Under the pieces are notes generated by a model, which saw only the letters and a list, made by a program, of their open reading frames with translations, was not told the DNA's origin and did no database searches. From Advenella sp. S44 (GTDB taxonomy: Bacteria; Pseudomonadota; Gammaproteobacteria; Burkholderiales; Burkholderiaceae_B), in contig NZ_NEXS01000009.1 of assembly GCF_002810445.1 (NCBI RefSeq), positions 62,001 through 126,000 on the forward strand: a stretch of 64,000 bases of DNA, written 5' to 3'. Shown here piece by piece: positions 38,668-62,722 of the stretch; within the stretch, counting starts at the first letter, position 1; each line of letters begins with the position of its first letter. The position numbers and the translations under genes are program-made.

Positions 38668-39297
38668 TCACGCCAGAGTCAGGTCGCCAGGGTATCCGGC
38701 ATGCATCCCACTTGTGTCGCCGTTAATCAGCATGTCATGAAAACGCGCTAACTCACTTTTATGCAGGATATTGATTGGGCATGCTATCTGCTTGGCATAT
38801 CGCTCAAATTGAGGATTGAGCACGCCATCGCGAATGTGCTGCGACATGCCCGCCTTGGGAAAAAACGGCCGAGTCTTGATTAAAACAAGCCGCTCAGCCT
38901 TCAAGTGATTGGCCAGCCATGCTGCAATACAATCTGACGACATATACACCGACGTCAATTCATCAGCCTGCTCACGCATCAGATACAGCGGCATCCAAAC
39001 CGCAACGCCGCCGCGCTGCAACACATTGCGAATTGCGTTGGCATTGACGGCCGGCGTCAGCTGGGACGACAACCCGGTAAGCATCAGACCGTATTGTGCC
39101 CTGGCCAGCACCAGCATATTGTGCGTGACCAGGCTGTCGAAATCCCATTGCTTCTTCATATTGCAAATGAAATCAACACCACGCCATCGCCCCGGGACGA
39201 TGATGACGCGCCCGCCACCCAGCGTTCCAAGCTGGGACAGCCAGAGATTCAAGGTATTATCATGTGCCAAATTACCATCAAGCTTTACCACCCACAT
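38668..39297 (-). CDS. amino-acid-kinase-fold protein at the end of the mxa cluster
   Basis: 209 residues. The first third, VVKLDGNLAHDNTLNLWLSQ, VIIVPGRWRGVDFICN and then LVTHNMLVLARAQYGLMLTGL, follows the pattern of small amino-acid-kinase-fold proteins such as MfnE-type kinases found in methylotrophs and methanogens. The two glycine-rich loops are partly lost: KLDGN for KxGGS and PGRWRGVDF for PGGGxFAD. An excellent site, GGAGGGGAGT, precedes the ATG, and it lies 21 bases after the beta-propeller gene, so it belongs to the methanol operon. Its function there is unknown, and kinase activity is doubtful. Confidence 0.6.
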   Translation of the reverse strand: MWVVKLDGNLAHDNTLNLWLSQLGTLGGGRVIIVPGRWRGVDFICNMKKQWDFDSLVTHNMLVLARAQYGLMLTGLSSQLTPAVNANAIRNVLQRGGVAVWMPLYLMREQADELTSVYMSSDCIAAWLANHLKAERLVLIKTRPFFPKAGMSQHIRDGVLNPQFERYAKQIACPINILHKSELARFHDMLINGDTSGMHAGYPGDLTLA

Positions 39298-39318
39298 ACT
39301 CCCCTCCCGGCCCTCAGA

Positions 39319-40305
39319 TTATTCTTTTTTGCAGCGCGAACGCGTTACCACGATACGCGGCCCGGCATCCACCGCAATTTTTTTCAATACTTGTCCCGGC
39401 TCCAGATCCATCACAACCACTGAATCGTCGAACCATGTCGCAACGTAGGCGCGCCCGCCTGCAATAGCGACACCCTCGGGATAACGCCCAACTTTCACCA
39501 GGGTCTCGTCAACACTGCCATCGCTGCCGATCCGCTGGAGCACACCTTTTTGCTGGGCGGTCACCCATAATTGCTTGCCGTCATTGCTAATGGCAATGCC
39601 ATATGGCATGGACTGCATTTTGACGCGCCACGTCTCCTTCAACGAGTCAGCCTCCAGGCGGCTGATGGTGTTGTCCTTGACGTTGGCGACATAGACCTGA
39701 TTACCATGGGAGGCCAAGGCAAAGGGTGAAGCGCCCACCGGTATGCCCGCCAGATGCTTCCATGCACCCGTGTCGATCACTGACACTGTCGCGCTGCCCC
39801 GATCCGCGACAAACAGACGCTGGCACGCGGCGTCCAGTGTCAATCCTGCGGGCGCATCACCAACGGCGATACGCCCGGTTTCGATTCCGTCGTGCGTACT
39901 GATACGCACGACCGCATTTCCTTTCCAGTCCGATACGAAAAGAGACTGTTCGTCCGCAGATAGCACGGCGGCAAAGGGCTCTCCCGGAAAATCATAGACA
40001 GCACTGACGTGCTTGCCTTGCAGATCGAGCGCGGATATTTTTCCGCTATCGGGATGCGTCACGAAGCCGCGCTTACCATCACGGGTAACCGCAATAAATA
40101 CCGGCTTGTCGGCCACCTGGATACGTGAGACAACCTGATTGGTGTCAACATCTACAATGCTTACCGAATTGCCGTCCTGGCTGGCCACATAAACATATTC
40201 ATTTTCCCGGTCCGCCCACGCCGCCTTGGCCAAGCATAATGCAGCCAGCCCCGCCATCGCGCAACGGACGAACCAAACAAACAGGTTTATACGGCCCATG
40301 GCCAT
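39319..40305 (-). CDS. YncE-like beta-propeller protein of the mxa operon, periplasmic
   Basis: 328 residues with a signal peptide (to about AWADRE). About seven repeats of the YVTN/beta-propeller type follow: YVYVASQDGNSVSIVDVDTN, VTRDGKRGFVTHPDSGKISALD, LSADEQSLFVSDWKGNAV and so on. Related propellers accompany PQQ-dependent alcohol dehydrogenases. In some methylotrophs an mxaE gene of unknown role sits at this place after mxaD; I do not claim identity. It starts one base after the mxaD stop, so it is clearly part of the operon and is expected to act in the periplasm, perhaps in enzyme maturation. Confidence 0.8.
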   Translation of the reverse strand: MAMGRINLFVWFVRCAMAGLAALCLAKAAWADRENEYVYVASQDGNSVSIVDVDTNQVVSRIQVADKPVFIAVTRDGKRGFVTHPDSGKISALDLQGKHVSAVYDFPGEPFAAVLSADEQSLFVSDWKGNAVVRISTHDGIETGRIAVGDAPAGLTLDAACQRLFVADRGSATVSVIDTGAWKHLAGIPVGASPFALASHGNQVYVANVKDNTISRLEADSLKETWRVKMQSMPYGIAISNDGKQLWVTAQQKGVLQRIGSDGSVDETLVKVGRYPEGVAIAGGRAYVATWFDDSVVVMDLEPGQVLKKIAVDAGPRIVVTRSRCKKE

Positions 40306-40306
40306 G

Positions 40307-40834
40307 TTATTTACCCTCTATCGTTTTCTTCAGGCCGGCAAGTCCGTTCTGGTAGATTGCGGTCATCGCCGCAATTGCCGACTCATCATTAAGTGCTTCC
40401 GGTGGCTCATTGCTCGTATCGCCGCGATAGAACCGACCAATCCACGAGACTTTGCTGCCCTCGCCTTCAGCCTCAACCGAGATCGTGGATGAGTATGAGC
40501 TGACCGGGAGCGCTTCCAGGTTTTCGCCATCCATCCGATAGCTGTAGGAATGCGCCGCGGCATCGTATTCGTCCAGACTTTCCTTAATAATGCCTTTTTC
40601 CAGCGTCAGTTCGCGAACGGATCCCGCCTCGTTTCCCTTGTCTGCCGCACTGTTGCTGACATCCGGATGCCAGTTGGCGATTGCGCCAAAATCGCCTACG
40701 GTCTCCCATACCTTATCGGGCGGGGCGGCAATATTGACGGCTTCCTCAACTTTCTTGGGTGTTGGCCCATGCGCGTAAACAGGCGCCAATGTCATAGTAA
40801 AAAAAAGGGCACTAACTAATGTTGATTTAATCAA
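40307..40834 (-). CDS. mxaD: MxaD, SRPBCC-fold methanol-oxidation protein
   Basis: 175 residues with a signal peptide ending VYAHG. The mature START/SRPBCC-like domain has VNIAAPPDKVWETVGDFGAIANWHPDV and ends in a long helix (ESAIAAMTAIYQNGLAGLKK). In methylotrophs MxaD aids electron transfer between methanol dehydrogenase and cytochrome cL in the periplasm. Its ATG overlaps the mxaL stop as ATGA. Confidence 0.9.
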   Translation of the reverse strand: MIKSTLVSALFFTMTLAPVYAHGPTPKKVEEAVNIAAPPDKVWETVGDFGAIANWHPDVSNSAADKGNEAGSVRELTLEKGIIKESLDEYDAAAHSYSYRMDGENLEALPVSSYSSTISVEAEGEGSKVSWIGRFYRGDTSNEPPEALNDESAIAAMTAIYQNGLAGLKKTIEGK

Positions 40835-41928
40835 ATGAGTCTCCTTGTGGACGTGGATAAATTCGTTTCTGCCGCTGCTGTGGTTTGCTCGCCGCCGGAA
40901 CCGGACGGTGGGATTGCGCGCTTTATAAAGAACGCAGACAAGTAGTAAGCAGCCAGTAAAAGCAAAGCCAGCCCGGCGATGTAAGGGGCAAGCGGAATCG
41001 AGGTCTGTACCAGACGCTTTTTCGCGTTAGCCATGATCAGTTCAGTGAGCGCGCCAGAGTTTGCTAACGTGGTATAGGCCAAGCCATAGGTTGTGGCCAG
41101 CCCCCTGAGATGCGACTCCTTCAGTGAAGAAAAGTGTTCATTTCCGGCCGCTGCACTGGCGCCAAATGGCGCGTTTCTGGGATGCCATCCCTCACGATCT
41201 GCCGCATCTGCCGGCGGCGGGCCGCTGCGATTCTCCTGATCGACCTCATCAGCGCCAAAAAATCCAATTTGATTGCCAGTCTCGTCAAATTTCGGTATGG
41301 GCGACAGATTGGCGCCTCCTACACCAATGACCACGCCTGCGTTGCGCTCCGATTCATTATCGGCTGTCGTGGCGCCCTGCGTTGTTAACGATTGCGCCCG
41401 GACCTCGGCTTCACCCTGCATCATCATATGGCCGATTTCGGCCTGCTCTGCCGGCAGCGGCGGCGCTTCGTGCCCGTCGGTCACGAACACCAGACTGACG
41501 CCCAGGCTCTTGGCAATTTCCAGTCCTGATTCGAGCCCTTTCGTAATGTAGCTGTCGCCTTCCCATGCCATTCGCCAATCCAGCTGCTCAATTGTGGTGG
41601 ACAAAGCCGCGAAGCTTTCGCAGACCTCAATCGGCTCCAGCAACAAGAACGAGCGTCTTTCAGAAAAAACCGCCAGCCCGGCACGACTGCCGCAAGGCAA
41701 CTGGGTCAATGTCTGCTTCAACTTCGTTCGGACTTCCTGCAGCCGGGTATGCAACTTTTCTCCGACGCCATAATCCCGCACATTCATACTGCCGGTAATG
41801 TCCACGGCAAACAGAACTTCAGGCCGCTCTTGTTCGACCGCGATATGAGGCCTGAAGCAGCCTGCGATCGCTAACGCGCAGGCAACTGCCAAAAGCCAGA
41901 ATCGAAAATCGACAAGCAAGCGACGCAT
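40831..41928 (-). CDS. mxaL: MxaL, VWA-domain protein for methanol dehydrogenase assembly
   Basis: 365 residues from the ATG at 41928, which overlaps the mxaK stop as TAATG; a longer frame upstream is not family-like. An N-terminal helix (LLAVACALAIAGC) resembles a lipoprotein-like signal. A VWA domain with MIDAS start FAVDITGSMNV (D-x-T-x-S type) and LVFVTDGHEAPP follows, then a C-terminal helix APYIAGLALLLLAAYYLSAF. Known in methylotrophs to be needed, with MxaA, K, for calcium insertion into the enzyme. Confidence 0.9.
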   Translation of the reverse strand: MRRLLVDFRFWLLAVACALAIAGCFRPHIAVEQERPEVLFAVDITGSMNVRDYGVGEKLHTRLQEVRTKLKQTLTQLPCGSRAGLAVFSERRSFLLLEPIEVCESFAALSTTIEQLDWRMAWEGDSYITKGLESGLEIAKSLGVSLVFVTDGHEAPPLPAEQAEIGHMMMQGEAEVRAQSLTTQGATTADNESERNAGVVIGVGGANLSPIPKFDETGNQIGFFGADEVDQENRSGPPPADAADREGWHPRNAPFGASAAAGNEHFSSLKESHLRGLATTYGLAYTTLANSGALTELIMANAKKRLVQTSIPLAPYIAGLALLLLAAYYLSAFFIKRAIPPSGSGGEQTTAAAETNLSTSTRRLI

Positions 41929-42572
41929 TACGGCAACCCCTTTGGCAGACCCGGCAAGTCTGTCCAAAACCGTTTGGGTGCCTCCGGCGAGTCCTCATCG
42001 TCGGTCATCTCGGCCTGCGGCAGATCGCGAACCAGGCGAGATGCAATATCCAGGTTATACCGGGCACTCCAGAACGACGGATCCAGCCTTAGCGCTCTCA
42101 CATAGTAGTCTTTGGCAAGGCGTACTGAAGACGGCGCCTCGTCTGTTTTACTGCTGCCCAGAAGATCGATGGCATGTCGCAGCCGTGCATTACCCATGTT
42201 GTAAAGCGCGTAAACGGCATGGGCAATTTCCTGGGCAGATGCTGCCGAGCCAGTCTGAGAAGCCCGTCCAGCCAGAAGCTCAACCCATGGCAAGGCTTCG
42301 TCCAGCCGCCCGATTGCGGTCAAAAAACGAAGCCGGGCAAAGGCGACCTGTGGCACTGCCTGCTCGTCAACAGCGATATCGTTACGTTTTTCCAGTTTGT
42401 CAATGATGACGTTATCGGCCGTTGTTTGCTGCAGAAAAACAAGCGAGCCGATCAGCCCGGCCACGGTTGCCAGCAATCCCAGCCATAAAAACCATGTGTA
42501 TATTCGTCCCGGCGCCGGAAAGCGCAAGGCAAGGCGCTTGCGCTTAAATCCCGGACGTGAATTGTCGACCAT
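41928..42572 (-). CDS. mxaK: MxaK, methanol dehydrogenase assembly protein
   Basis: 214 residues from the ATG at 42572 (AAGGAG five bases upstream). It has a cytoplasmic basic start (GFKRKRLALRF), one helix (WFLWLGLLATVAGLIGSLVFL) and a helical periplasmic part with TPR-like segments (VRLAKDYYVRALRLDPSFWSARYNL). In methylotrophs MxaK acts with MxaA and MxaL in making active calcium-loaded methanol dehydrogenase. It overlaps the mxaC end by 29 bases. Confidence 0.88.
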   Translation of the reverse strand: MVDNSRPGFKRKRLALRFPAPGRIYTWFLWLGLLATVAGLIGSLVFLQQTTADNVIIDKLEKRNDIAVDEQAVPQVAFARLRFLTAIGRLDEALPWVELLAGRASQTGSAASAQEIAHAVYALYNMGNARLRHAIDLLGSSKTDEAPSSVRLAKDYYVRALRLDPSFWSARYNLDIASRLVRDLPQAEMTDDEDSPEAPKRFWTDLPGLPKGLP

Positions 42573-43590
42573 TTTCACTCCTTATTGCACTGCCGCCGAC
42601 CAGCCGCTGCGCACAATGGACCATCAGCAATACCGCCAGGATCACGGCAGCCAGACCGGAAAGATAGCCTGACAGATCCCTGCGCGGAATATGTTCGGTA
42701 TATTGCAGGGGCGCCTTTTCTTGTTTGTCGATTTCGGCGATCGCCTCAGCGACCTCCTCTACATTCTCGGCCTCGAAAGCCCGATACGGCACGCCCAGGG
42801 ACTTGAAGAAAATATCAAGATGGCGTTCCGGCATGGCCTGCGGAGTGTCTTTGTCCGGATCAGACGGCATATCCCCTATTCCCGGTGACCCCGGGGTTCG
42901 CAGGAACAACCAATACAAACGAATCGGGCGCAAGGCCAGCGCCTGCTTCAGCGCGTTCTGCACCCGCATATCGACTACGGCTGCACCATCGGACACCAGA
43001 AAGATGACCCGGGACGCCAGCGGGTCATTGTCCTCATCAAACTGGGACAACGCCATTGCAAGCCCGCGACCGATATCGGTATAGGACAAGCCGGGCCGAT
43101 CGATCGCATTGATGGCCGCATCAACCGCCTGCGAATTGTCGGTGAGCGGCAAGACATACATCGGCATGGTCGAGAATGCAACCATGCCGATCCGGTCCTG
43201 CTCGCGCTGCTTCGCAAATCCCTTCAACAAACGTTTTGCCGCGGCAGCCTTGGACTCTTCCTCACCAGACGGTATATCTCCGTCAAAACTGCTATTCATA
43301 CTTGAACTGCGGTCAATCAACAGCACCATATGTGCGCCTGTTCCCAGTTTCTGGATCGAGCCCCCTTTCATATGCAAGCCGGCCAGACATAGAATCAATA
43401 CCAATAAAGCCAAAAAACCCAAAATGCGCAGCAGGATGTCAACGGCTTCTGAAAGTCGATCGGATCCAGCCGTGCCAAGCCAGGGCCAGCCCGACACCCG
43501 GCGCGGACGAAGAAAGAACGGCAGCAAGCTGCCGGGAAGCAGTAACAGCATGTACGGGAAATCGACCGCAATCACGCCCAGGCCGTTCAT
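42544..43590 (-). CDS. mxaC: MxaC, VWA-domain membrane protein
   Basis: 348 residues. N-terminal helices at about 12-26 and 52-70, a VWA domain with MIDAS VLLIDRSSSMNSS (DxSxS) and VIFLVSDGAA, and a C-terminal helix LSGLAAVILAVLLMVHCA. It resembles BatA/BatB-type proteins that work with MoxR ATPases. The stop of mxaA overlaps its start by four bases (ATGA type). Role: methanol dehydrogenase maturation. Confidence 0.9.
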   Translation of the reverse strand: MNGLGVIAVDFPYMLLLLPGSLLPFFLRPRRVSGWPWLGTAGSDRLSEAVDILLRILGFLALLVLILCLAGLHMKGGSIQKLGTGAHMVLLIDRSSSMNSSFDGDIPSGEEESKAAAAKRLLKGFAKQREQDRIGMVAFSTMPMYVLPLTDNSQAVDAAINAIDRPGLSYTDIGRGLAMALSQFDEDNDPLASRVIFLVSDGAAVVDMRVQNALKQALALRPIRLYWLFLRTPGSPGIGDMPSDPDKDTPQAMPERHLDIFFKSLGVPYRAFEAENVEEVAEAIAEIDKQEKAPLQYTEHIPRRDLSGYLSGLAAVILAVLLMVHCAQRLVGGSAIRSENGRQFTSGI

Positions 43591-44513
43591 ATGCTCTTCC
43601 TTTCGGCGGCTGCCAGCCGCTTTGCGATGCCCAGCAGGGCCGCAGGAGGCAACTCGGACAACGCTCGCGTCTGGTCATCGCTAAAAAACACAAACGAGGA
43701 AGCGGCAAAAAACTGCTCAAGATCGGTTTGTACTGGTTTGAGAAATGCGTGTTGCTGCACAAACTGTGGAATGTCACCGGCCAGCAGGCGCCCATCATTG
43801 CTGACATCAAGCGCCCGATGCAACTGGATAAGGCTGTGCCGGTATGCGTCTGCGCCAGGCTTGCGCAATCGTTTTTTGATGGCGCGATGCGCACGCGCCA
43901 GCGGTCGGGCCGGGCGTCGATGAAAAGGCCAAATGCAATAGTGAACGGCAAGCGCAATCAGCCATAGCACGGTCAGCACACCCAGGCTGATAACCAGTTT
44001 CTGCAAAAACGTCTTGGCAATGGGACGTGCGGGCACATCCGGCTGGACCTGTTCGGTCAGCCCAATACCCGAATGCGCAACGCCCCTTAGCGGAGACATG
44101 AAAAAGTCCTGAGGCGGTATTCTTATTGTCTGGGACTGTCCGCCATCGGTAAAAAGCAGATCTAACTCGGGGATTTGACGCTGGTTTACATCCAGCGGTA
44201 CATAAAAAGTCTGATAGCGCAACGTCAGCGTATAGCGCAAGCCATTCTTGAATGCCTTTTCTTGCACATCCAGAGACCGAAGGTCAAGCCAGTAGTTCAG
44301 CCGTCCCGGGTGCGGCAACGACGATTGTTGTAACTTGGCTTGCTTGCTGTCGATCGTGATCGTGACCGGGATGACGTCACCCAGGATCCATCCGGCCGGC
44401 CTGGGCGCCTGTACCTGCACATTGGTTACCTGCGCACGCAAGGGATTCAATGCACCCGCAAAATATAACGCCGCAATAAAAAGCAGAAAAGGCCATATCC
44501 GTCCTCTCATCAT
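43587..44513 (-). CDS. mxaA: MxaA, methanol dehydrogenase calcium-insertion factor
   Basis: 308 residues. Signal peptide to about LRAQV, a periplasmic beta-rich part (ILGDVIPVTITIDSKQAKLQ, RYQTFYVPLDVNQRQIP), one helix (LVISLGVLTVLWLIALAVHY) and a cytoplasmic Arg-rich part ending LGIAKRLAAAERKS. It lies between mxaS and mxaC as in other mxa clusters. Mutants in methylotrophs make enzyme lacking calcium. Confidence 0.9.
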   Translation of the reverse strand: MMRGRIWPFLLFIAALYFAGALNPLRAQVTNVQVQAPRPAGWILGDVIPVTITIDSKQAKLQQSSLPHPGRLNYWLDLRSLDVQEKAFKNGLRYTLTLRYQTFYVPLDVNQRQIPELDLLFTDGGQSQTIRIPPQDFFMSPLRGVAHSGIGLTEQVQPDVPARPIAKTFLQKLVISLGVLTVLWLIALAVHYCIWPFHRRPARPLARAHRAIKKRLRKPGADAYRHSLIQLHRALDVSNDGRLLAGDIPQFVQQHAFLKPVQTDLEQFFAASSFVFFSDDQTRALSELPPAALLGIAKRLAAAERKSI

Positions 44514-44518
44514 GCCTC

Positions 44519-45388
44519 CTATCGCTCAAGCAGATACGTGTTCAGTGCCTCAATATCCAGCTGATCTGTTATTGCAAAAGGCGGGTTGACATATTGCCTG
44601 AAAATGCTGTCCAAATGTTTTCGACGCTTTTCGGCCTGGTCAAGCCAGCGCCGCTTCAGGGATGGACGCAGAATCACAAAACGGCGCCGGCCCGACTCCA
44701 GGTCGGCAAACTCGCTAAATCCCCATTCGGGTAGGTCGGCGATGGCAGTGTCCTGCAGCACAACCGGGATGACATCGTGCAATACCAGCGTTGCCAGGAT
44801 TTTTTCGATTTGTTCATCGGGGAACAGAAAATCGGAAATCAGAAAGACCAGCTTGCGTGGCCCCGCAAGGTGTTCTGCAACCTGGGCCAGACCCGCCGCA
44901 CTGTCGTCGGCCGGGCGCACTTGCGCCAGGTGGTTGATCATCTCGGTCGCGCCGGCACGATTGCGTGTCGCCACCAGGCTTGTTTGCTCATGAACCTCTT
45001 TGCCACAGGCATAGAGTCCAAAACTGTCGCCGTTGCGATGCGCCGACTGCGCCAGTACATCGCACAGTCCGGCCGCAATTGCCAGTTTGCTTGAATCGTT
45101 GTCGCGCCAGGCCATGGAGGCAGAAACATCGACCAGCGCGCAAACCGTAACGGCAACCCGAGGCTGGTACTCCCGTGAGTACCACTGACCGAAGGGGTCG
45201 CGCATGCTGCGCCGCAAGTCCAGTCTGCGAATATCCGGTGCACGCTCAAAGGGCACCAGTGCCCGGAATATGCCCGAAGCCGCACCGCCGGCGCCTGAAT
45301 GGGTGCCAGGATAAACGCTTTGCACGCGCCAGCGCAACGAGTAATCAATCATCGCTCCAGCGGAAGCGGCGTTCCCGGGCGCAGTCAT
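44519..45388 (-). CDS. mxaS: MxaS, DUF58-domain protein
   Basis: 289 residues from the ATG at 45388, which overlaps the mxaR stop (ATGA); a longer frame upstream overlaps mxaR too far. DUF58 pattern: DLRRSMRDPFGQWYSREYQPRV, then ALVDVSASMAW (a MIDAS-like DxSxS) and LVFLISDFLFPDEQIEKIL. DUF58 proteins partner with MoxR ATPases. It is cytoplasmic by lack of helices. Role in dehydrogenase maturation is known by linkage. Confidence 0.9.
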   Translation of the reverse strand: MTAPGNAASAGAMIDYSLRWRVQSVYPGTHSGAGGAASGIFRALVPFERAPDIRRLDLRRSMRDPFGQWYSREYQPRVAVTVCALVDVSASMAWRDNDSSKLAIAAGLCDVLAQSAHRNGDSFGLYACGKEVHEQTSLVATRNRAGATEMINHLAQVRPADDSAAGLAQVAEHLAGPRKLVFLISDFLFPDEQIEKILATLVLHDVIPVVLQDTAIADLPEWGFSEFADLESGRRRFVILRPSLKRRWLDQAEKRRKHLDSIFRQYVNPPFAITDQLDIEALNTYLLER

Positions 45389-46422
45389 GGGACCGCCACC
45401 GTTGAAAAGACCTGCCGGCACAGTTCCGGAACAATCGTATCGCGCCTGGGTTCGTATATGGGATTCAGAAAAATCCGATGTCCGATGGTCTCGTAAAAGA
45501 CGTCACGCACATCTTCGGGCAATACCATATCGCGGCCCTCAAGCCACGCCAAGATCCTGGCTGCCCGAACCAGCACAGCCATGCCTCGCGGACTGGCCCC
45601 GCCCTTGACGAGCCTGGCGCTATCGACGCCGGCAATCTCGATACCAGCACCGGCGGGATAGCGAATCGCCTCCCACAGCGCAACCACGTAATCCTGCAGC
45701 GCCATACTGGTCTGGATGCTTGCTTGAATCTGTACGGCCACGGCATTTAGTGCAGCATGATCCAATACACCTTCGGTAACCTCCTGGATCAATGCATCAA
45801 CATCGTGATACCGGGGATTGAAAATAAGTTCTCGTCGCAACTGCCTGTCATCGGGCGCCTGGACCGGCACTTCCATAAAAAAGCGGTCCCTGGCGGCAGC
45901 GGGCAACTCAAAGGTTTCTTCCTTCTCGATCTGGTTGCGGTCTGCGAAAACCTGCACGTTTGGCAACGGGATATCCCGGTTAAAGGCATTGACAGCTCTT
46001 TCTGCCATCAGTCTGAGTAACAGCGAATGCACTTGCGGCCTGGCGCGATTGATCTCGTTGAAGAAAAAAACCGATATGTCCTGCCCATGCGAGAGCAACG
46101 GGCCCGGCTCGACCCGGGGTCGTCCTTCTTCGTTCAGGTAGGTGTGATAAATCAAATCGGCCGGCATCAAGTCAATGGTGCCTTCCACCCGACTGTAAGC
46201 GCCCCCGATAGCACGCGCAACAGCGCGCAGCATTAGCGTCTTGCCAACGCCAACATCCCCTTCGAGCAAGACATGTCCTCTGGCGAAAACCGCAATCGTG
46301 AGCATTCGAATGGTACGCGTCTGGCCAATTGCCGCTTTTGCTACTTCCTGCTCAAACAACAGGGCTCGCTGGCGCCAATGAACCAGATCAATGCTGTCTT
46401 GGGCAGGTTCGTGAACCATCAA
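45385..46422 (-). CDS. mxaR: MxaR, MoxR-type AAA+ ATPase
   Basis: 345 residues. Walker A EGDVGVGKTLMLRAVA, sensor and Walker B region VFFFNEINRARPQVHSLLL, and VFADRNQIEKEETFELPAAA, the MoxR signature segment. It powers maturation of methanol dehydrogenase together with the VWA proteins MxaC, MxaL and the DUF58 protein MxaS. A 126-base gap with a strong hairpin separates it from mxaI, so its expression is probably lower than that of the structural genes. Confidence 0.93.
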   Translation of the reverse strand: MMVHEPAQDSIDLVHWRQRALLFEQEVAKAAIGQTRTIRMLTIAVFARGHVLLEGDVGVGKTLMLRAVARAIGGAYSRVEGTIDLMPADLIYHTYLNEEGRPRVEPGPLLSHGQDISVFFFNEINRARPQVHSLLLRLMAERAVNAFNRDIPLPNVQVFADRNQIEKEETFELPAAARDRFFMEVPVQAPDDRQLRRELIFNPRYHDVDALIQEVTEGVLDHAALNAVAVQIQASIQTSMALQDYVVALWEAIRYPAGAGIEIAGVDSARLVKGGASPRGMAVLVRAARILAWLEGRDMVLPEDVRDVFYETIGHRIFLNPIYEPRRDTIVPELCRQVFSTVAVP

Positions 46423-46548: not shown

Positions 46549-46854
46549 TTATGACGCTGGAATCTTTTTAACGTCGTATTCGAACTTGCCTGTCTTTTTA
46601 AAGTTTTCCACGCGCAGCTTGTTTCTTTCTTCCATTTTCTGAATGGTTTCCTGCTGCTTTGCCACTTCCTTGGGATCATGTTTAGGATCGTATTTGGATC
46701 CCTTCACCTGGGCTGGATATCCTGGCTTAGGCTCCCAGCAATTGCCGGGCGCCTTGCACTTTGTGCCGTCGTATGCAAAAGCACTTGCTGAACCCAGAGC
46801 CATTACGGCAGTCCCGGCCAACACAAGCGCGGAACGAATTATAGACTGTCTCAT
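46549..46854 (-). CDS. mxaI: MxaI, methanol dehydrogenase small (beta) subunit
   Basis: 101 residues from the ATG at 46854 (AGGAG upstream). Signal peptide to about SAFA, then YDGTKCKAPGNCWEPKPGYP with the two disulfide cysteines, GSKYDPKHDPKE and KTGKFEYDVKKI, all diagnostic of MxaI. It wraps around MxaF in the alpha2-beta2 periplasmic enzyme. XoxF-type (lanthanide) enzymes lack this subunit, so its presence marks a true Mxa system. Confidence 0.97.
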   Translation of the reverse strand: MRQSIIRSALVLAGTAVMALGSASAFAYDGTKCKAPGNCWEPKPGYPAQVKGSKYDPKHDPKEVAKQQETIQKMEERNKLRVENFKKTGKFEYDVKKIPAS

Positions 46855-46947
46855 CAGTTTCTCCTCTTGTATGATCACTGCCTGTCGGCAACCGCTAACC
46901 GAATATTACAGGCTCCGATTTCCCGCGTTTTAACGCAAGATCTGCTA

Positions 46948-47487: not shown

Positions 47488-47544
47488 ATTTGGGTTATCT
47501 CCTGGCATTTTAATAATTTCTTTCCGAGTGCATTTGTCGGAAAA

Positions 47545-51686: not shown

Positions 51687-51694
51687 GGTGATGT

Positions 51695-51710
51695 ATAAGC
51701 CTGTGCTTAT
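51695..51710. promoter_or_regulatory. CbbR operator candidate
   Basis: ATAAGC-CTGT-GCTTAT, a perfect 6-bp palindrome of the T-N11-A type used by LysR regulators, nine bases beyond the cbbR start. A further AT-rich half-site region (TATTTATTATTAG) follows at about 51721-51733, and TATAGT at about 51755 could be the cbbL -10 box. Confidence 0.65.
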
Positions 51711-51740
51711 GATTTCTTCGATATTTATTATTAGACCTGA

Positions 51741-53291
<1,551 letters not shown>

Positions 53292-54821: not shown

Positions 54822-54822
54822 C

Positions 54823-55587
54823 ATGCTCAAAGCACTGATCTTTGATGTGGACGGGACACTGGCCGATACCGAGACCGTCCATCTACGCGCGTTCAATACC
54901 GCTTTCGTGCTGGCCGGCACGGACTGGTACTGGGACGAAGACTTATACCGGGAGTTGCTGGCCATTAGCGGCGGCAAGGAGCGCATGGCCCACTACTGGT
55001 TGTCCATTGACCCGGAAGGCGCCAGTACACTGCAGGCCGCAAGAAAAATCCGGGAAATTCACGCCATTAAGACGGAGGAATATGCGCGTCTGGTGGAAAA
55101 CGGCCAGGTCGTGTTGCGCCCCGGCATTCACAGACTGCTCATAGACGCCTATTGCGCTGGCATCCCGGTGGCCATTGCCACCACCACGACGGCGGCCAAT
55201 GTTGATGCCCTGCTGCACCATTGTCTGGGATCGGACTGGCGAAAATTCTTTGCCGCAATCTGCGATGCCAGCACCCCGGGCAAGAAAAAGCCCGAGCCGG
55301 ACGTCTACGTTCACGCCCTGGACGAGCTCGACGTGGACGCCACAAACTGCATTGCCTTCGAAGACTCGGAAAACGGGTTGCGCGCGGCGGCCAAAGCCGG
55401 CATCTCGACCATTATCACACCCACGCATTTTACCCAAGAGCAGGATTTTAATGGCGCCATGCTGGTGCTACCCCATCTGGGCGATCCCGATCTGCCGATT
55501 CCGCCTGGCAACGGCATCCATCAGACCATGGTGGACCTGTTCACGCTCAAGTGCCTGCACGCAGATCCGCTGCTCAAGGCCGGCTGA
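54823..55587 (+). CDS. cbbY: CbbY, HAD phosphatase (xylulose-1,5-bisphosphate phosphatase)
   Basis: 254 residues from the ATG at 54823, one base beyond the cbbX stop. HAD motif I FDVDGTLADTE, a cap with ISGGKERMAHY, motif II-like AIATTTTAANVDALL, motif III KKKPEPDVYVHAL and motif IV AFEDSENGLRAA. CbbY removes the RuBisCO misfire inhibitor xylulose 1,5-bisphosphate, working with CbbX. A phosphoglycolate phosphatase role is less likely. Confidence 0.92.
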   Translation: MLKALIFDVDGTLADTETVHLRAFNTAFVLAGTDWYWDEDLYRELLAISGGKERMAHYWLSIDPEGASTLQAARKIREIHAIKTEEYARLVENGQVVLRPGIHRLLIDAYCAGIPVAIATTTTAANVDALLHHCLGSDWRKFFAAICDASTPGKKKPEPDVYVHALDELDVDATNCIAFEDSENGLRAAAKAGISTIITPTHFTQEQDFNGAMLVLPHLGDPDLPIPPGNGIHQTMVDLFTLKCLHADPLLKAG

Positions 55588-55625
55588 CATATCGCCAGAC
55601 ATTGATTTACATAGAGGAAACCACC

Positions 55626-56705
55626 ATGCAAACGCAGCAACGACTTACTCTGACCCAGTTCCTGATCGACGAAAGACGGCGCTTTCCCGAGGCGGGCGGT
55701 GATTTCAACAGCGTGATCCTCAATATCGCCCTGGTTTGTCGCCGAATATCGCACACGATCGCCTGCGGCGTACTGGCCGGCGCCAACGGCAGTGCCAACT
55801 CGACCAACGTGCAAGGCGAAGAGCAAAAAAAGCTGGATGTGCTAAGCAACGACTTGTTCATCGAAGGCAATCAATGGGGTGGGCAACTGGCCGGTATGGT
55901 ATCGGAAGAACTTGATGAACCATACAGCATTCCCAAGCCGTATAGCCGCGGCCGATACCTGCTGCTGTTCGATCCTCTTGATGGTTCTTCCAATATTGAC
56001 GTCAATGTCGCTGTTGGCAGTATTTTCTCGGTGCTGCGCACGCCTGATTCACGGCGTGCAACCACGACCAAAGACTACCTTCAGCCCGGCGTAAAACAGG
56101 TGGCCGCCGGCTATGCCATCTACGGGCCCTCCACCATGCTTGTGCTGTCGGTCGGCAACGGCGTCCACGCTTTTACGCTGTGCCCGCTGGTTGGCGAATT
56201 CATGCTGACACATCCGAACCTGAAGGTTCCCCAAGACACCAATGAATTTGCCATCAATACGTCCAACAGTCGCTTCTGGGAAGATCCGGTACGACGCTAT
56301 GTTGATGAATGCATCGCCGGCAAGACGGGGGAGCGCGGCAAGGATTTCAATATGCGCTGGATTGCGTCGCTGGTCGCCGAAGCACACCGCATCCTGATGC
56401 GCGGCGGCGTGTTTCTGTATCCGCGAGACAATAAACAGCCGGCGCGTAATGGCCGATTGCGTCTGTTATATGAAGCCAATCCTATCGGCTTTATCATGGA
56501 GCAGGCCGGTGGGCGTGCCAGCACCGGCGTTGAACCGGTCATGCAAGTGGTTCCCACCGACATCCATCAGCGAATCGGTTTTATTTTCGGATCGAAAAAC
56601 GAGGTCGAGCGGATTGAGCAGTACCACCAGCATCCGCGACGCGTCGATTCGCCAAATCCGTTGTTTCATGAGCGCAGCCTGTTTACCGAATCGACGGGCG
56701 TGTGA
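55626..56705 (+). CDS. cbbF: fructose-1,6-/sedoheptulose-1,7-bisphosphatase, class I
   Basis: 359 residues from the ATG at 55626 (AGAGGAAACC upstream); a longer frame overlaps cbbY. Class I FBPase signatures are GEEQKKLDVLSND and LLFDPLDGSSNIDVNVAVGSIFS (metal site), then GGVFLYPRD, RLLYEANPIGFIMEQAGG and VPTDIHQR. It serves the regenerative phase of the Calvin cycle. Confidence 0.95.
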   Translation: MQTQQRLTLTQFLIDERRRFPEAGGDFNSVILNIALVCRRISHTIACGVLAGANGSANSTNVQGEEQKKLDVLSNDLFIEGNQWGGQLAGMVSEELDEPYSIPKPYSRGRYLLLFDPLDGSSNIDVNVAVGSIFSVLRTPDSRRATTTKDYLQPGVKQVAAGYAIYGPSTMLVLSVGNGVHAFTLCPLVGEFMLTHPNLKVPQDTNEFAINTSNSRFWEDPVRRYVDECIAGKTGERGKDFNMRWIASLVAEAHRILMRGGVFLYPRDNKQPARNGRLRLLYEANPIGFIMEQAGGRASTGVEPVMQVVPTDIHQRIGFIFGSKNEVERIEQYHQHPRRVDSPNPLFHERSLFTESTGV

Positions 56706-56809: not shown

Positions 56810-57691
56810 ATGTCAGAACGCCACCCGATCATCTCCATTACCGGTTCTTCAGGCGCCGGAACCACGTCGGTGACCCGGACCTTCGAAAATATATTCCGCC
56901 GCGAAGGCGTCACAGCGGCTTCTATCGAAGGCGACAGCTTTCATCGCTACAACCGCGCGCAAATGAAAGAGCGGCAGGCGGCCGCCGAGAAAAACGGCAA
57001 TGCCAATTTCAGTCATTTCGGACCAGATACGAATCTGTTTGCCGAACTCGAAACGCTGTTTCGCACATACAGCGAGAGCGGCTCGGGCAAGCGACGCAAG
57101 TACCTGCACGATACGCGTGAAGCTGCCCCCTACAATCAGGAGCCCGGCACGTTCACGGCGTGGGAGGATATTCCTCCGGATACTGACCTGCTGTTCTATG
57201 AGGGGCTGCACGGCGCGGTCGTGCACAAGGACATCAATATTGCGCAATATCCGGATTTGCTGGTCGGCGTGGTGCCAGTGATCAACCTGGAATGGATACA
57301 GAAATTGTGGCGCGACAAATCGGCCAGAGGGTATTCGGCCGAAGCGGTCACAGATACCATTTTGCGGCGCATGCCCGATTATGTGAACCATATTTGTCCG
57401 CAATTTGCGCTAACGCATGTCAACTTTCAGCGGGTGCCATGCGTGGATACTTCCAATCCGTTTATTGCGCGGGACATTCCGGCGCTGGACGAAAGTTTCG
57501 TGGTCATCCGCTTTGCCAACCCCAAGGGCATTGATTTTCAGTACCTGCTCAATATGGTGCACGATTCGTTCATGTCGCGGGCCAACACCATTGTCGTTCC
57601 TGGCGGCAAAATGGAACTGGCCATGCAATTGATTTTTACGCCATTTGTCTGGCGCATGATGGAGCGCAAAAAACGCGCGACACAGGCTTGA
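56810..57691 (+). CDS. cbbP: phosphoribulokinase
   Basis: 293 residues. The P-loop is ITGSSGAGTTSVTRTFENIF; EGDSFHRYNR follows, with the proteobacterial hexameric/octameric class I layout (LFYEGLHGAVV, the Walker B equivalent, and IQKLWRDKSARGYSAEAVTDTILRRMPDY as segments). It makes RuBP from ribulose 5-phosphate and ATP. The ribosome-binding site is weak and 104 bases precede it. Confidence 0.96.
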   Translation: MSERHPIISITGSSGAGTTSVTRTFENIFRREGVTAASIEGDSFHRYNRAQMKERQAAAEKNGNANFSHFGPDTNLFAELETLFRTYSESGSGKRRKYLHDTREAAPYNQEPGTFTAWEDIPPDTDLLFYEGLHGAVVHKDINIAQYPDLLVGVVPVINLEWIQKLWRDKSARGYSAEAVTDTILRRMPDYVNHICPQFALTHVNFQRVPCVDTSNPFIARDIPALDESFVVIRFANPKGIDFQYLLNMVHDSFMSRANTIVVPGGKMELAMQLIFTPFVWRMMERKKRATQA

Positions 57692-57701
57692 GGAGAAAAC
57701 C

Positions 57702-59726
57702 ATGAATCTTGCCGAAAAAATAGGCCTTCAGGATACACGACATGCAGATGCGCTGCGCTTTCTGGCGGCCGACGCCGTAGAACAGGCGCAGTCGGGCCAT
57801 CCTGGCGCCCCCATGGGCATGGCCGATATCGCCCAGGTGCTATGGCGACAGCATCTGTCCCATAACCCGGCCGATCCGGGATGGCTTAATCGCGACCGCT
57901 TTGTGCTGTCCAACGGCCATGGCTCCATGCTGCTGTATGCCCTGCTGCATCTGACCGGCTACGATCTGCCGCTGGAGCAGATCCGGCAATTTCGCCAGCT
58001 TCACTCCGTGACGCCCGGCCACCCCGAAGTGGGTATCACGCCTGGTGTAGAGACAACAACCGGCCCGCTGGGCCAGGGCCTGGCCAATGCCGTGGGCATG
58101 GCGCTGGCAGAACAATTGCTGGCACGCCGCTATAACCGTCCCGGTCATGCCATCATCGATCATTACACCTACGTTTTTCTGGGCGACGGTTGCCTGATGG
58201 AAGGCATCAGCCACGAAGTGTGTTCGCTGGCCGGCACCCTGGGCCTGGGCAAGCTGATCTGTTTTTATGACGACAACGGAATTTCCATTGATGGCCAGGT
58301 CACAGGCTGGTTCGGCGACGACACCGTCGGACGCTTTGCGGCGTACAACTGGAATGTGATTGCCAATGTAGACGGACATGACGCAGCGGCGGTCGATGCA
58401 GCCATCCGCCAGGCAAAATCCCAGGCGTCCGAACAAGCGCGCCCTACCCTGATCTGCTGCCGCACCCATATCGGTCACGGCGCGCCAACCAAGGCCGGGA
58501 GTCACGAAGTACATGGCGCGCCGCTGGGGCCCGATGAAATCGCAGCAATGCGGGCGGCAAGAGGCTGGCGCTACGCAGAATTCGAATTGCCCCACGACGT
58601 GGTCAATGACTGGAACGCCATCGAGCAGGGCGCGAGCCGTCAACAAGAGTGGCAGCAACGCTTTGATCGCTGGCAGGCGCAATTTCCCGAGGATGCCGAT
58701 GAGCTGGCCCAGCGACTGCACGGCAACCTACCCGATGCCACACAGCAGGCGCTGGACGCCCTATTGGATACCAGCGACGCGCTTCACGGCAAAATCGCAA
58801 CCCGCAAGGCATCCCAGATCGTTCTGGAGGCCATGACCCCCACCCTGCCGGGCTTGTTCGGCGGCTCGGCCGACCTGAGCGGCTCGAACCTGACCAATGT
58901 GAAATCGTCCGTGTGGGTCAATCATCATGGCCACGGTAACTATTTAAGTTACGGCGTACGTGAATTCGGCATGGCAGCGGTCATGAACGGGCTGGCATTG
59001 CATGGCGGATTTATTCCCTACGGAGGCACGTTTTTGACCTTCTCGGATTACTCGCGCAACGCAATCCGCATGGCCGCGCTGATGAAACAACGCGTCGTCC
59101 ATGTTTTCACGCATGACTCTATCGGTCTGGGTGAAGACGGCCCGACCCATCAACCGATAGAACATATCAGTTCGCTGCGTACCATTCCCAACAACCGGGT
59201 ATGGCGGCCTTGCGATGGTGAAGAGACAGCCATTGCCTGGCAAGAAGTGCTCAAGCGCCACGACGGGCCGGGTTGCCTGGTCCTGTCGCGCCAGAATCTG
59301 ACTCCCTTTACTCGTGACAAGGCGCAACGCGATCAGATCGCACGCGGCGGCTATATCCTGCAGGACGCGGCCAATGCGCAAGCCGTGTTGATTGCCACGG
59401 GATCGGAAGTGGGCATTGCCATCGATGCCGCCAAGGCACTGGGCGAAGAAGGTATCGCGGTGCGCGTCGTTTCCATGCCTTGCGTCGAGATGTTTTATGC
59501 CCAGCCGCAAGCGTGGCGCGATCAGGTGCTCCCGCCCGAGCTGCCACGCATCAGCATCGAAGCCGGCTCCCGCTGGTTCTGGCGCGGCGTTGTCAATAAC
59601 GGCACCGTCATCGGTATCGATACCTTCGGCGAATCGGCGCCGGCCAGCCAGTTGTATGACTACTTCGGTCTTACCCCGCAGGCGGTTCGCGACGCTGTCC
59701 ATGCACAGCTCGCACTCAATCCATAG
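57702..59726 (+). CDS. cbbT: transketolase
   Basis: 674 residues. Thiamine-diphosphate site GDGCLMEGISHEVCSLAGTL with LICFYDDNGISIDG, the start HADALRFLAADAVEQAQSGHPGAPMGMADIA and the second-half THDSIGLGEDGPTHQPIEH. It moves two-carbon units in the regeneration of ribulose 5-phosphate. GAGGAG precedes the ATG, ten bases after cbbP. Confidence 0.96.
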   Translation: MNLAEKIGLQDTRHADALRFLAADAVEQAQSGHPGAPMGMADIAQVLWRQHLSHNPADPGWLNRDRFVLSNGHGSMLLYALLHLTGYDLPLEQIRQFRQLHSVTPGHPEVGITPGVETTTGPLGQGLANAVGMALAEQLLARRYNRPGHAIIDHYTYVFLGDGCLMEGISHEVCSLAGTLGLGKLICFYDDNGISIDGQVTGWFGDDTVGRFAAYNWNVIANVDGHDAAAVDAAIRQAKSQASEQARPTLICCRTHIGHGAPTKAGSHEVHGAPLGPDEIAAMRAARGWRYAEFELPHDVVNDWNAIEQGASRQQEWQQRFDRWQAQFPEDADELAQRLHGNLPDATQQALDALLDTSDALHGKIATRKASQIVLEAMTPTLPGLFGGSADLSGSNLTNVKSSVWVNHHGHGNYLSYGVREFGMAAVMNGLALHGGFIPYGGTFLTFSDYSRNAIRMAALMKQRVVHVFTHDSIGLGEDGPTHQPIEHISSLRTIPNNRVWRPCDGEETAIAWQEVLKRHDGPGCLVLSRQNLTPFTRDKAQRDQIARGGYILQDAANAQAVLIATGSEVGIAIDAAKALGEEGIAVRVVSMPCVEMFYAQPQAWRDQVLPPELPRISIEAGSRWFWRGVVNNGTVIGIDTFGESAPASQLYDYFGLTPQAVRDAVHAQLALNP

Positions 59727-59790: not shown

Positions 59791-60846
59791 ATGGCCCTCG
59801 TTTCATTACGTCAACTGCTGGATCACGCGGCAGAGCACAGTTACGGCATTCCCGCCTTCAACGTGAATAATCTGGAACAGATCCAGGCCATCATGCAGGC
59901 TGCGGCCGGCACCGATAGCCCGGTCATTTTGCAGGCGTCGGCCGGCGCACGCAAGTATGCCGGAGAAGCCTTTTTGCGCCGACTAGTAGAAGCGGCCATC
60001 GAGTCCTATCCTGACATTCCGGTATGTATGCATCAGGATCACGGAGCCAGCCCCGCAGTGTGCCAGGCCTCGATTCGATCCGGGTTTTCCAGTGTGATGA
60101 TGGACGGCTCGCTGCAGGCCGATATGAAAACACCATCGACCTACGAATATAATGTCGCAGTGACGCGCCAGGTTGCCGATATGGCTCACTGCGTGGGCGT
60201 TTCGGTAGAGGGCGAGCTCGGCTGCCTGGGATCGCTGGAATCAGGCCAGGCCGGCGAGGAAGATGGCTCAGGCGCCGAGGGTATCTTATCGCATGAACAA
60301 CTGCTGACCGATCCGGAACAGGCCGCCGATTTTGTGGCCCGTACCGGAGTGGATGCGCTGGCAATTGCCATTGGCACCAGCCACGGCGCATACAAATTTA
60401 CCCGCAAGCCAACTGGCGACATTCTGGCTATTGACCGCATCCGCGCAATCCACGAGCGTATTCCCGACACACACCTGGTCATGCACGGTTCGTCCTCTGT
60501 ACCCCAGGAGTGGCTGGACATCATCAGGGCGCATGGCGGGGATATTCGCGAAACTTACGGCGTGCCGGTAGAGGAAATTTGCGAAGGCATCAAAAATGGC
60601 GTGCGCAAAGTCAATATTGACACAGATATCCGGCTGGCAATGACCGGGGCCATGCGTCGCTGCATGATGCAGGACACATCAGAATTTGATCCGCGAAAAT
60701 TCTTTAAGGAAGCCACGGCAGCCGCAAGGCAGATTTGCGAACAACGCTTTGAGGCATTCGGCTGCGCGGGTCGTGCTTCTTCCATCAAGCCGATACCGCT
60801 TGACCAGATGGCCAAGATGTACGCACAGCAGGCCAAGGCAGCCTAG
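59791..60846 (+). CDS. cbbA: fructose-bisphosphate aldolase, class II, Calvin-cycle subtype
   Basis: 351 residues. Start [29 protein letters not shown] (in segments), metal site [44 protein letters not shown] and [13 protein letters not shown]. It forms fructose and sedoheptulose bisphosphates. CAAGGAG precedes the ATG. Last gene of the cbb operon; no cbbE, cbbG or cbbK follows. Confidence 0.96.
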
Positions 60847-60897
60847 TTCTGTCACGGGGCTGGCTCCGGCGCGAGCGCATCCCCGGCAAGAATGACG

Positions 60898-60929: not shown

Positions 60930-60990
60930 GGCTGTTGTGCCATACCGACACATCAGTAATACCGCTTTGACAAATCGTACTGCAATCCCG

Positions 60991-61015
60991 GGCACGTCGC
61001 AGACTGCGACGTGCC
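60991..61015 (-). terminator. perfect hairpin after frmA, terminator candidate
   Basis: GGCACGTCGCA pairs with TGCGACGTGCC (11 bp, three-base loop) ten bases beyond the frmA stop on the minus strand. There is no T-tract. With the cbb terminator it separates the convergent operons. Confidence 0.55.
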
Positions 61016-61024
61016 TGGTAGCAA

Positions 61025-62137
61025 TCAGTCGAAAGTGACCACCGAACGAATTGATTTACCTTCGTGCATCAGGTCGAAAGCTTCGTTGATCTTCTCGATT
61101 GGCATGACATGGGTAATCAGGTCATCGATGTTGATCTTGCCTTCCATATACCAGTCGACAATTTTCGGTACATCGGTGCGACCACGCGCCCCGCCAAAGG
61201 CCGAACCCTGCCAGACACGGCCGGTAACCAGCTGGAACGGCCTTGTCGATATCTCTTGCCCCGCACCGGCCACACCGATAATGGTGCTCTTGCCCCAGCC
61301 TTTATGGCAGGACTCCAGCGCCTGGCGCATCAGATTCACGTTGCCGATACATTCAAAGGTGTGATCGGCGCCGCCTTTGGTCAGGCTTACCAGATAGGGA
61401 ACGATATCGCCTTCCACTTCCTTCGGATTGACAAAATGCGTCATACCGAATTTACGCGCCAGCTCTTCGCGTGCCGGGTTGATATCGACACCGATAATCA
61501 TATCGGCGCCGGCCAGGCGCGCACCCTGTACGACGTTAAGACCGATCCCACCCAGGCCGAACACAATGACCTTATCACCAGGCTCTACCTTGGCCGTGTA
61601 GATCACGGCGCCAACACCGGTAGTCACGCCGCAGCCGATATAGCAAACTTTTTCAAAGGGCGCATCTTCGCGGATCTTGGCCAGTGCAATTTCCGGCACA
61701 ACCGTGTAATTGGAAAAGGTGGAGGTGCCCATGTAGTGGAACACATCCTCGCCATTGATCTTGAAGCGACTTGTGCCGTCAGGCATCAGGCCCTTGCCCT
61801 GGGTTTCACGAATGGCGCCGCACAGGTTGGTCTTGCGCGACAGGCAGAATGCGCAATTGCGACACTCTGGCGTATAAAGCGGGATCACGTGGTCTCCGGG
61901 CTTGAGCGTCGTTACGCCCGACCCCACTTCCACCACCACACCGGCACCTTCGTGGCCGAGAATCGCCGGGAAAATCCCTTCAGGATCATCACCGGAGAGC
62001 GTGAACATATCGGTATGACACACGCCCGAGGCTTTGATCTCCACCAGCACTTCGAATGCGCGCGGACCTTCGAGCTGAACCGTCTCTATCGTTAGCGGCG
62101 CCCCGGCTTTTGTAGCAACAGCGGCTTTTGTATCCAT
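61025..62137 (-). CDS. frmA: S-(hydroxymethyl)glutathione dehydrogenase (class III alcohol dehydrogenase)
   Basis: 370 residues. Catalytic zinc [12 protein letters not shown] and [12 protein letters not shown]; structural zinc cysteines in [34 protein letters not shown]; and the NAD fold [20 protein letters not shown] with D in GVDINPARE. It oxidises the formaldehyde-glutathione adduct to S-formylglutathione with NAD. In this window it removes formaldehyde from methanol oxidation. Preceded by AGGAG. S-formylglutathione hydrolase is not here. Confidence 0.96.
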
Positions 62138-62152
62138 TACTTCAACTCCTGC

Positions 62153-62722
62153 TTAAGATGCATGTTTTGATTTTGCAACGTGTGTTGCGATAACGTCCAT
62201 CAACGCTGGCGACAGCGCATCATAGTGAGGCAATCCCAATTCGTTCAGTCGTGCACGAATGCCATCCATTTCGGCAGGATCGGTTCCTGTTTCGATGATG
62301 GATGACACAAAGGCGGCAAACGTGGGCGCAGACCAGCCGGTCTCTGGAGACCGTTCCGTGTGAATAAAATCGAGCCCGTGAAAGGGATGCTGCGTATTTT
62401 CAATACGGCCGTACATGTGAACGCCACAACCGCTACATGCATGGCGCTGAATGGCTGCCGATTCGTCAACCACCTTGAGCTTGTCGGCATTGGCCGTCAC
62501 TTGCACTGAATCCCGGGGGACCACGGCAACCTGCGAAAACAGGGCACCGGCCGGCCGCCAGCATTTGGAGCAACCACAAAGGTGATTATGTGCCGATTGC
62601 GAGTTGACCGTGACTTCGACTCTGTCTGTCTCGCAATTGCAAACCAGCTTTCCACCGGTAAAGTTATTGTCTGTACTTGCCTGAACGCCATTGTTGACGG
62701 CTGGATGAATATTGTAACTCAT
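62153..62722 (-). CDS. gfa: glutathione-dependent formaldehyde-activating enzyme
   Basis: 189 residues from the ATG at 62722 (GGAGAC upstream). Gfa binds two zincs through [34 protein letters not shown] (as CGCSKCW) and [11 protein letters not shown], all present. It speeds formation of S-hydroxymethylglutathione, the frmA substrate; some workers regard it as a glutathione carrier. Its stop lies 15 bases before frmA, so they form one operon. Confidence 0.94.

Follow-up and report, generated by a model that had tools for sequence, protein, structure and literature searches.

The 64,000-nucleotide stretch of Advenella sp. S44 analysed here, referred to below as the window (bases 62001–126000 of contig C11, in a 4.3 Mb genome of 17 contigs), contains a contiguous run of genes for methanol oxidation (mxa), the Calvin cycle (cbb) and glutathione-linked formaldehyde oxidation (frmA, gfa) at positions 38668–62782, all of them present as open frames. 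This block is probably an autotrophic-methylotrophy locus under sigma-54 control, in which the dehydrogenase genes form a module that has been exchanged. The joining of mxa and cbb is real, intact in sequence and unusual; the more interesting fact is that the slot beside cbbR holds either of two kinds of methanol dehydrogenase.

The genus comparison covered ten Advenella genomes, the window genome among them. CbbL and a dehydrogenase of this class occur in six of the ten (one genome per species), the CbbL of the other five carriers being 97–98% identical to that of the window; neither occurs in the remaining four genomes, which likewise yielded no close homologue of the sirtuin encoded in the left flank. 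The gene order is the same in all six carriers: eno-MFS-kdsA-pyrG-sirtuin-cupin-actP-duf485, then the dehydrogenase module, then cbbR-cbbLSXYFPTA-frmA-gfa-hydrolase-pqq-activator. Three carriers, the window genome, G005 and G008, have an mxa module and the other three, G003, G004 and G007, a xox module; none of the six carries both. The xox module, with gene models taken from G003 and gene presence checked in G004 and G007, comprises xoxF and genes for a c-type cytochrome (xoxG by its place), a MoxJ-like protein (TIGR03871 above cut-off), a 251-residue protein matching no model, a YVTN protein, a cytochrome b561 and an amino-acid kinase. The Advenella proteins have the motif DEWDYAG in MxaF and DEWDYDG in XoxF; the extra aspartate in this motif marks lanthanide use.

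The type of module is at odds with the ancestry indicated by the surrounding genes. The left flank, the set cbbR-cbbLSXFP-frmA-gfa, and pqqBCE with the activator and the hydrolase give trees that agree in uniting G008 (mxa) with G003 (xox), followed by G004 (xox), G007 (xox) and the window genome (mxa), with G005 (mxa) outermost where Pollutimonas roots the tree; the left-flank tree has no outgroup, the other trees are rooted by Pollutimonas where it is present, and many broken frames in the locus region of G004 leave gaps in the trees. Support in the agreeing trees is 85–100, apart from 66 for the G008–G003 pair in the second cbb set. An mxa/xox split of the six genomes was rejected by the approximately unbiased test with the left flank after removal of roughly actP and duf485 (p = 0.0007), with the cbb set minus its first 1000 columns (p = 0.0003) and, at lower strength, with an unlinked locus (p = 0.032). 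Given this conflict between module type and the gene trees, the module must have changed more than once. The exchange, in the slot between duf485 and cbbR, would most likely have proceeded by homologous recombination through the shared borders: when G003 and G008 are compared in 500-base steps, the four highest identities (98.0–98.9%) flank the module, with actP on one side and the 3' end of cbbR on the other, compared with 79.8–96.2% elsewhere and with 88.5–92.6% between G003 and G004 in the same four steps. A spacer of 216 bases next to duf485 is also 97% alike in G003 and G008, and in these arms the two genomes are about equally distant from G004 and from the window genome.

Several observations weigh against this reading. 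The duf485 gene, located between the 98% stretch in actP and the module, differs by 10.4% between G003 and G008, so the left high-identity arm is broken. Taken alone, pyrG gives a poorly resolved tree, with nodes at 43 and 55%, and in the tree of the unlinked locus G008 is still placed with G003, but G007 groups with G005 (support 72–82). Identity at fourfold sites is 39.1–46.6% in the mxa genes versus 49.8–57.5% in the flanks, a greater divergence that agrees with an older or separate entry of mxa as well as with exchange. The slot is known from six genomes, one per species, and enzyme activity, growth on methanol, regulation and the mechanism of exchange are predictions from sequence. A broader suggestion, towards which we are slightly sceptical, is that the mxa (calcium) and xox (lanthanide) cassettes may be exchangeable alleles, moved by homologous recombination across conserved border stretches and served by the same sigma-54 activator, and that the genus adapts to metal supply by swapping them between strains; many methylotrophs retain both enzymes and use a regulatory lanthanide switch. 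If the main reading of the locus is right, the genus would offer a natural experiment on metal choice, with a calcium or a lanthanide enzyme in the same slot on similar Calvin-cycle and PQQ (pyrroloquinoline quinone) backgrounds, and the slot would allow a direct test of the interchangeability of the enzymes within one regulatory setting.

Genes were called with NCBIfam model cut-offs, Pfam, and tblastn together with the gene order in other mxa clusters. The genes and predicted sites are as follows, in window coordinates:

38668–39297, minus strand: amino-acid-kinase-family protein, a distant MfnE relative and the last gene of the mxa run (PF00696, 29.7 bits, cut-off 24.9)
39319–40305, minus strand: YVTN beta-propeller protein of the PQQ-associated repeat type (TIGR02276; TIGR03866 below cut-off)
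40307–40834, minus strand: mxaD (PF10604, Polyketide_cyc2; order in other clusters)
40831–41967, minus strand: mxaL (PF13519, VWA; order and tblastn against other mxa clusters)
41928–42578, minus strand: mxaK (no model match; tblastn and order in other mxa clusters)
42544–43590, minus strand: mxaC (VWA domain; other mxa clusters)
43587–44513, minus strand: mxaA (no model match; tblastn and order)
44519–45421, minus strand: mxaS (DUF58/VWA)
45385–46422, minus strand: mxaR, MoxR-type AAA ATPase (PF07726)
46549–46878, minus strand: mxaI, methanol dehydrogenase beta subunit (PF02315, 152.8 bits)
46966–47508, minus strand: mxaG, cytochrome cL (TIGR03872)
47545–48429, minus strand: mxaJ (TIGR03870)
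48535–50454, minus strand: mxaF, PQQ methanol dehydrogenase alpha subunit of the calcium type (TIGR03075; motif DEWDYAG and tree)
50565–50579, minus strand: sigma-54-like promoter TGGTACGGATATTGC upstream of mxaF
50775–51764, minus strand: cbbR, LysR regulator and right border of the module slot (best match NF045990, below cut-off)
51747–53291, plus strand: cbbL (NF003252, 790 bits; 83% to CbbL of Sinorhizobium meliloti pSymB)
53347–53766, plus strand: cbbS (PF00101)
53859–54821, plus strand: cbbX, RuBisCO activase (TIGR02880)
54691–55587, plus strand: cbbY-like HAD phosphatase (HAD models; cbbY by context)
55551–56705, plus strand: cbbF, fructose-bisphosphatase (NF006779)
56810–57691, plus strand: cbbP, phosphoribulokinase (NF011997)
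57702–59726, plus strand: cbbT, transketolase (TIGR00232)
59791–60846, plus strand: cbbA, class II aldolase (TIGR01521)
61025–62137, minus strand: frmA, S-(hydroxymethyl)glutathione dehydrogenase (TIGR02818)
62153–62782, minus strand: gfa, S-(hydroxymethyl)glutathione synthase (TIGR02820)
62823–62837, minus strand: sigma-54-like promoter TGGCATGGAAGTTGC upstream of gfa
63192–64000, running on to 64262 beyond the window, minus strand: alpha/beta hydrolase of the prolyl aminopeptidase kind

Read from left to right, the order is thus amino-acid kinase, YVTN and mxaDLKCASRIGJF (minus), cbbR (minus), cbbLSXYFPTA (plus), frmA and gfa (minus). The products of mxaF, mxaJ, mxaG, frmA, gfa, cbbL, cbbX, cbbF, cbbP, cbbT and cbbA pass the NCBIfam cut-offs, and those of mxaI and cbbS the Pfam ones. 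The contiguous mxaFJGIRSACKLD, cbbR/cbbLSXYFPTA and gfa-frmA genes, described in a first-pass annotation made without database searches, are thereby confirmed as open frames, by models and, for mxaA and mxaK, by tblastn and order. An alanine follows DEWDY, mxaI, mxaG, mxaJ and the maturation genes RSACKLD are present, and PQQ supply is encoded, as in MxaFI-type systems. The cbbR gene lies about 320 bases from mxaF and is read in the same direction, the cbb operon being read in the opposite one; the name cbbR rests on context, since the score (267 bits) is below the 450-bit cut-off of the CbbR model. The listed cbbL frame begins upstream of its homologues in the genus, whose alignments start at its residue 26 or 38.

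The first-pass annotation had placed ordinary chromosomal genes on both sides of the block. The right flank instead contains pqqABCDE and a gene for a sigma-54 activator, at 64520–70052 in coordinates extended beyond the window. The pqqA product has 24 residues with the E-x3-Y pattern, the products of pqqB, pqqC, pqqD and pqqE all exceed the NCBIfam cut-offs, and the activator encoded beside pqqE contains GAF, sigma-54-interaction (PF00158) and Fis-type helix–turn–helix (HTH_8) domains; an activator near pqq or the dehydrogenase is also found in Pollutimonas and Alcaligenes. With pqqA-E next to the block, this locus would also supply the PQQ that MxaF needs. The hydrolase gene (63192–64262) adjoins pqqB, standing divergently beside pqqA/B, in 13 of the 13 pqqB-bearing loci compared, a position that makes its product a candidate for PqqA processing.

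The gene content supports the single route proposed from the sequence at first pass, in which methanol would be oxidised to CO2 by way of formaldehyde, S-hydroxymethylglutathione and formate and the CO2 would enter the Calvin cycle. Periplasmic MxaFI, with PQQ and Ca2+, would oxidise methanol and pass electrons to cytochrome cL (MxaG), the cofactor presumably being supplied by PqqA-E from just beyond the window; Gfa and FrmA would convert formaldehyde to S-formylglutathione, FghA and formate dehydrogenase would yield CO2 and NADH, and the cbb operon, under its own LysR regulator, would fix the resulting CO2. Both steps missing from the block are encoded elsewhere in the genome, where a search located an S-formylglutathione hydrolase (C8:106352–107182, 427 bits) and the alpha subunit of a formate dehydrogenase (C8:712347–714374, 927 bits), each above cut-off. 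The statement that the block has no tetrahydromethanopterin (H4MPT) gene extends to the genome level for the marker gene fae, which was found in none of the ten Advenella genomes by a search that was positive in 2 of 14 control genomes (both methanogens, one above cut-off). The locus is thus well predicted, from its genes, to be a nearly self-contained unit of autotrophic methylotrophy, and growth on methanol would be expected. If this is true, the genome holds a compact, nearly complete genetic unit for methanol growth by way of CO2, in a genus of beta-proteobacteria that is not well known for such growth.

The GAF/AAA+/Fis activator probably turns on the dehydrogenase genes and gfa-frmA through conserved sites of the −24/−12 type, counted here when they had at most 2 mismatches and lay within 200 bases upstream. 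Such sites precede mxaF in 3/3 Advenella genomes and in Pollutimonas bauzanensis, xoxF in 3/3 Advenella and 3/3 Pollutimonas genomes, and gfa in 6/6 Advenella and 4/4 Pollutimonas loci. When pooled, the dehydrogenase and gfa upstream stretches are positive in 20 of 20 cases, versus 24 of the 289 frames used as controls in the Advenella regions; two of these 24 are frames of the amino-acid kinase that goes with xox, and their site is aligned with the one upstream of mxaF. The 20 stretches are orthologues and not independent, and the pattern alone gives 9 sites in the window versus 8.5 expected, which is no excess. Only conservation across genomes therefore lends the sites weight, and sigma-54 control of the dehydrogenase and gfa is a supported inference from predicted sites, not a demonstration. 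Upstream of cbbL (6 loci) and of the activator gene (10 loci) no such site turned up, nor did one lie within 450 bases of either pqqA or pqqB in the Advenella and Pollutimonas genomes or ahead of mxaF in the three Alcaligenes-type loci; these absences also count against such control.

The linkage of mxa and cbb was described at first pass as unusual, and this judgement held. The 80 nearest MxaF loci, from one-per-species genomes and with flanks of up to 10 kb per side, include a single locus, that of Advenella, with cbb genes beside mxaF; the set tests mostly the upstream side, because mxa genes largely fill the downstream one. Weak matches to cbbR (26–29%) with no other cbb genes in four loci (L086, L087, L089 and L096) were taken as other LysR regulators. 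CbbL was sought in 49 genomes drawn from these loci, with no Methylobacterium among them, and was present in 32: within 10 kb of mxaF in one (Advenella), on the same contig 0.46–1.6 Mb away in four, and on a different contig in 27, where, some of the contigs being short, the two genes may still be close across a contig break. A family-wide comparison of 268 genomes from 43 genera (CbbL counted at E ≤ 1e-150) yielded 13 genomes with a dehydrogenase of this class, 13 with CbbL and 8 with both; the two are at most about 11 kb apart in seven of the eight, namely six Advenella genomes and one Pollutimonas genome with XoxF, and P. bauzanensis has mxa and cbb on separate contigs.

The closest known system is the XoxF route linked to the Calvin–Benson–Bassham (CBB) cycle of Bradyrhizobium and Sinorhizobium, for which a published study, backed by growth and labelling data, describes a 28.5-kb region of pSymB that combines XoxF and the glutathione (GSH) pathway with genes for lanthanide uptake, the CBB cycle and PQQ, and that has a type IC RuBisCO (PMC12628762). 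In tblastn searches, about 28.5 kb of S. meliloti pSymB gave matches to frmA, xoxF, xoxJ, YVTN, gfa, cbb with cbbX, cbbR and three pqq genes (B, C and E); no match to the sigma-54 activator, the hydrolase or the amino-acid kinase was found there at E ≤ 1e-5. Both loci thus bring together GSH-linked formaldehyde oxidation, CBB and PQQ genes; the S. meliloti one has XoxF (lanthanide), is located on a megaplasmid and has another gene order, whereas the window locus has a full mxa set (calcium). The Advenella locus is therefore of the same kind as the XoxF-GSH-CBB-PQQ cluster of S. meliloti, in a calcium version in three species and a lanthanide version in three. The mxaFJGIRSACKLD clusters of Xanthobacter, Ancylobacter, Hansschlegelia and Methylobacterium have the same order where the contig reaches, with MxaF 74–83% identical, but no cbb operon beside mxaF within the flanks examined; in the genomes of these groups searched for CbbL, it is absent, on another contig or 0.46–1.6 Mb away.

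Within the family, four Pollutimonas genomes (G199, which is P. bauzanensis, G200, G201 and G203) also have frmA-gfa, the hydrolase and pqqBCDE together, along with mxa or xox, the activator and the sigma-54-like sites. The cbb genes adjoin frmA-gfa/pqq in G199 and G200; in G199 mxa is on a contig other than that of cbb, and G200 has its xox module between gfa and pqq, with cbbT and cbbA unmatched. G201 and G203 (L146–L149) have xox, frmA-gfa and pqq together and no CbbL, so methanol carbon may only be oxidised in them. Alcaligenes endophyticus (G055) and an Alcaligenaceae metagenome-assembled genome, bin102 (G132), are alike in having frmA, mxa, pqq, the hydrolase and the sigma-54 activator together, but differ in having no CbbL, no gfa match at the locus and no sigma-54-like site before mxaF. 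Advenella kashmirensis subsp. methylica is reportedly a facultative methylotroph. The nearest named locus is that of A. kashmirensis W13003, with MxaF 92% identical. Among the matches listed in the open-licence literature, one Advenella paper on such genes was found, which notes that A. kashmirensis WT001 encodes a methanol dehydrogenase as well as PQQ synthesis and the Calvin cycle (PMC3669393), and no description of module exchange was among the matches listed.

Changes of module could also be explained by an ancestor that had both mxa and xox at the site, with species losing one or the other. The xox genes have diverged about as much as their flanks (fourfold-site identity 60–72% versus 63–78%), and amino-acid-kinase and YVTN genes occur in both modules, which speaks for such loss; but the gene trees would require a module to have been lost independently five or six times, always with the same borders, the 10 border spacers (of 12) that were compared with the other module gave no match beyond the shared border stretches, and no genome here has both modules. 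This explanation is considered unlikely, and exchange of the module is favoured over it. It is also quite improbable, in our estimate, that methanol and formaldehyde are handled here only for detoxification or energy gain, with the Calvin cycle belonging to another lifestyle such as sulfur autotrophy and its adjacency incidental. A. kashmirensis WT001 has been published as a sulfur chemolithoautotroph (PMC3669393), and two Pollutimonas genomes have the xox, frmA-gfa and pqq genes together with no CbbL, yet the adjacency is conserved in all six Advenella carriers and one Pollutimonas, and in S. meliloti the same combination supports methanol growth through the Calvin cycle (PMC12628762).

The recent gain of the entire 24-kb block as one genomic island, the origin favoured by the first-pass annotation, is largely refuted within the genus and is very improbable. 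Such an island would agree with the patchy distribution of the genes in the family, with the lowest GC (guanine plus cytosine) content of the window (0.50–0.51 in 2-kb steps) over mxaI-G-J-F and cbbR, and with the MxaF tree, in which the Alcaligenaceae sequences cluster together (0.989), next to a Hydrocarboniphaga metagenome-assembled genome (0.991), within a mostly alphaproteobacterial set. However, the rows of this tree (the nearest 80 loci plus family members) were chosen by similarity to the query and under-sample beta-proteobacterial MxaF, the GC content of the block (0.50–0.60) is much as elsewhere in the window (0.51–0.60), and model scans found no integrase among the frames scanned in the block. 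The block stands at the same site in six of the ten congeners, the cbb, frmA, gfa and pqq trees match that of the left flank, and PQQ synthesis is encoded on the right. Synteny is two-sided, the same arrangement being found in most of the genus and in only 6 of the 268 family genomes; the MxaF tree would fit an old acquisition of mxa by the family. A tRNA-Asn gene at 36031, considered as an integration site, occurs in each of the six genomes whichever module they carry and is thus uninformative for the block. A scenario in which cbb was simply inserted into an Alcaligenes-like ancestor, between its frmA and mxaF, was dropped as well, since the orientation of frmA differs. The changing unit is the dehydrogenase module, and the block is not a recent island.

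The dehydrogenase tree contains 93 rows, with four strains present twice and seven XoxF sequences; the MxaF of G176 was excluded as a short piece. In that genome (L153–L154) the mxa cluster is in pieces at mxaF, mxaR, mxaS and pqqB, through decay or sequencing error. In G003 the stretch at 19446–21891 (L123–L124), between cupin and actP and next to the exchanged locus, is not shared by G008; by eye it holds a TerC-like gene, and it also has a short frame. This frame, at 21502–21891 of the joined region of G003, left of actP, looked recombinase-like by eye, had no Pfam match and was given no weight.

The amino-acid-kinase gene at the end of the mxa run scores 30 bits against the NCBIfam MfnE model (cut-off 300) and matches PDB entry 7qrh with an E-value of 4e-5; with this score and no fae in the genus, a role for the MfnE-like kinase in the H4MPT route was rejected. 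Its counterpart in the xox version has 57–61% amino-acid identity. Although the genus has no fae, the gene accompanies both the mxa and the xox module in Advenella and the mxa genes in P. bauzanensis, and among the 80 MxaF loci it was matched in Advenella and Pollutimonas only.

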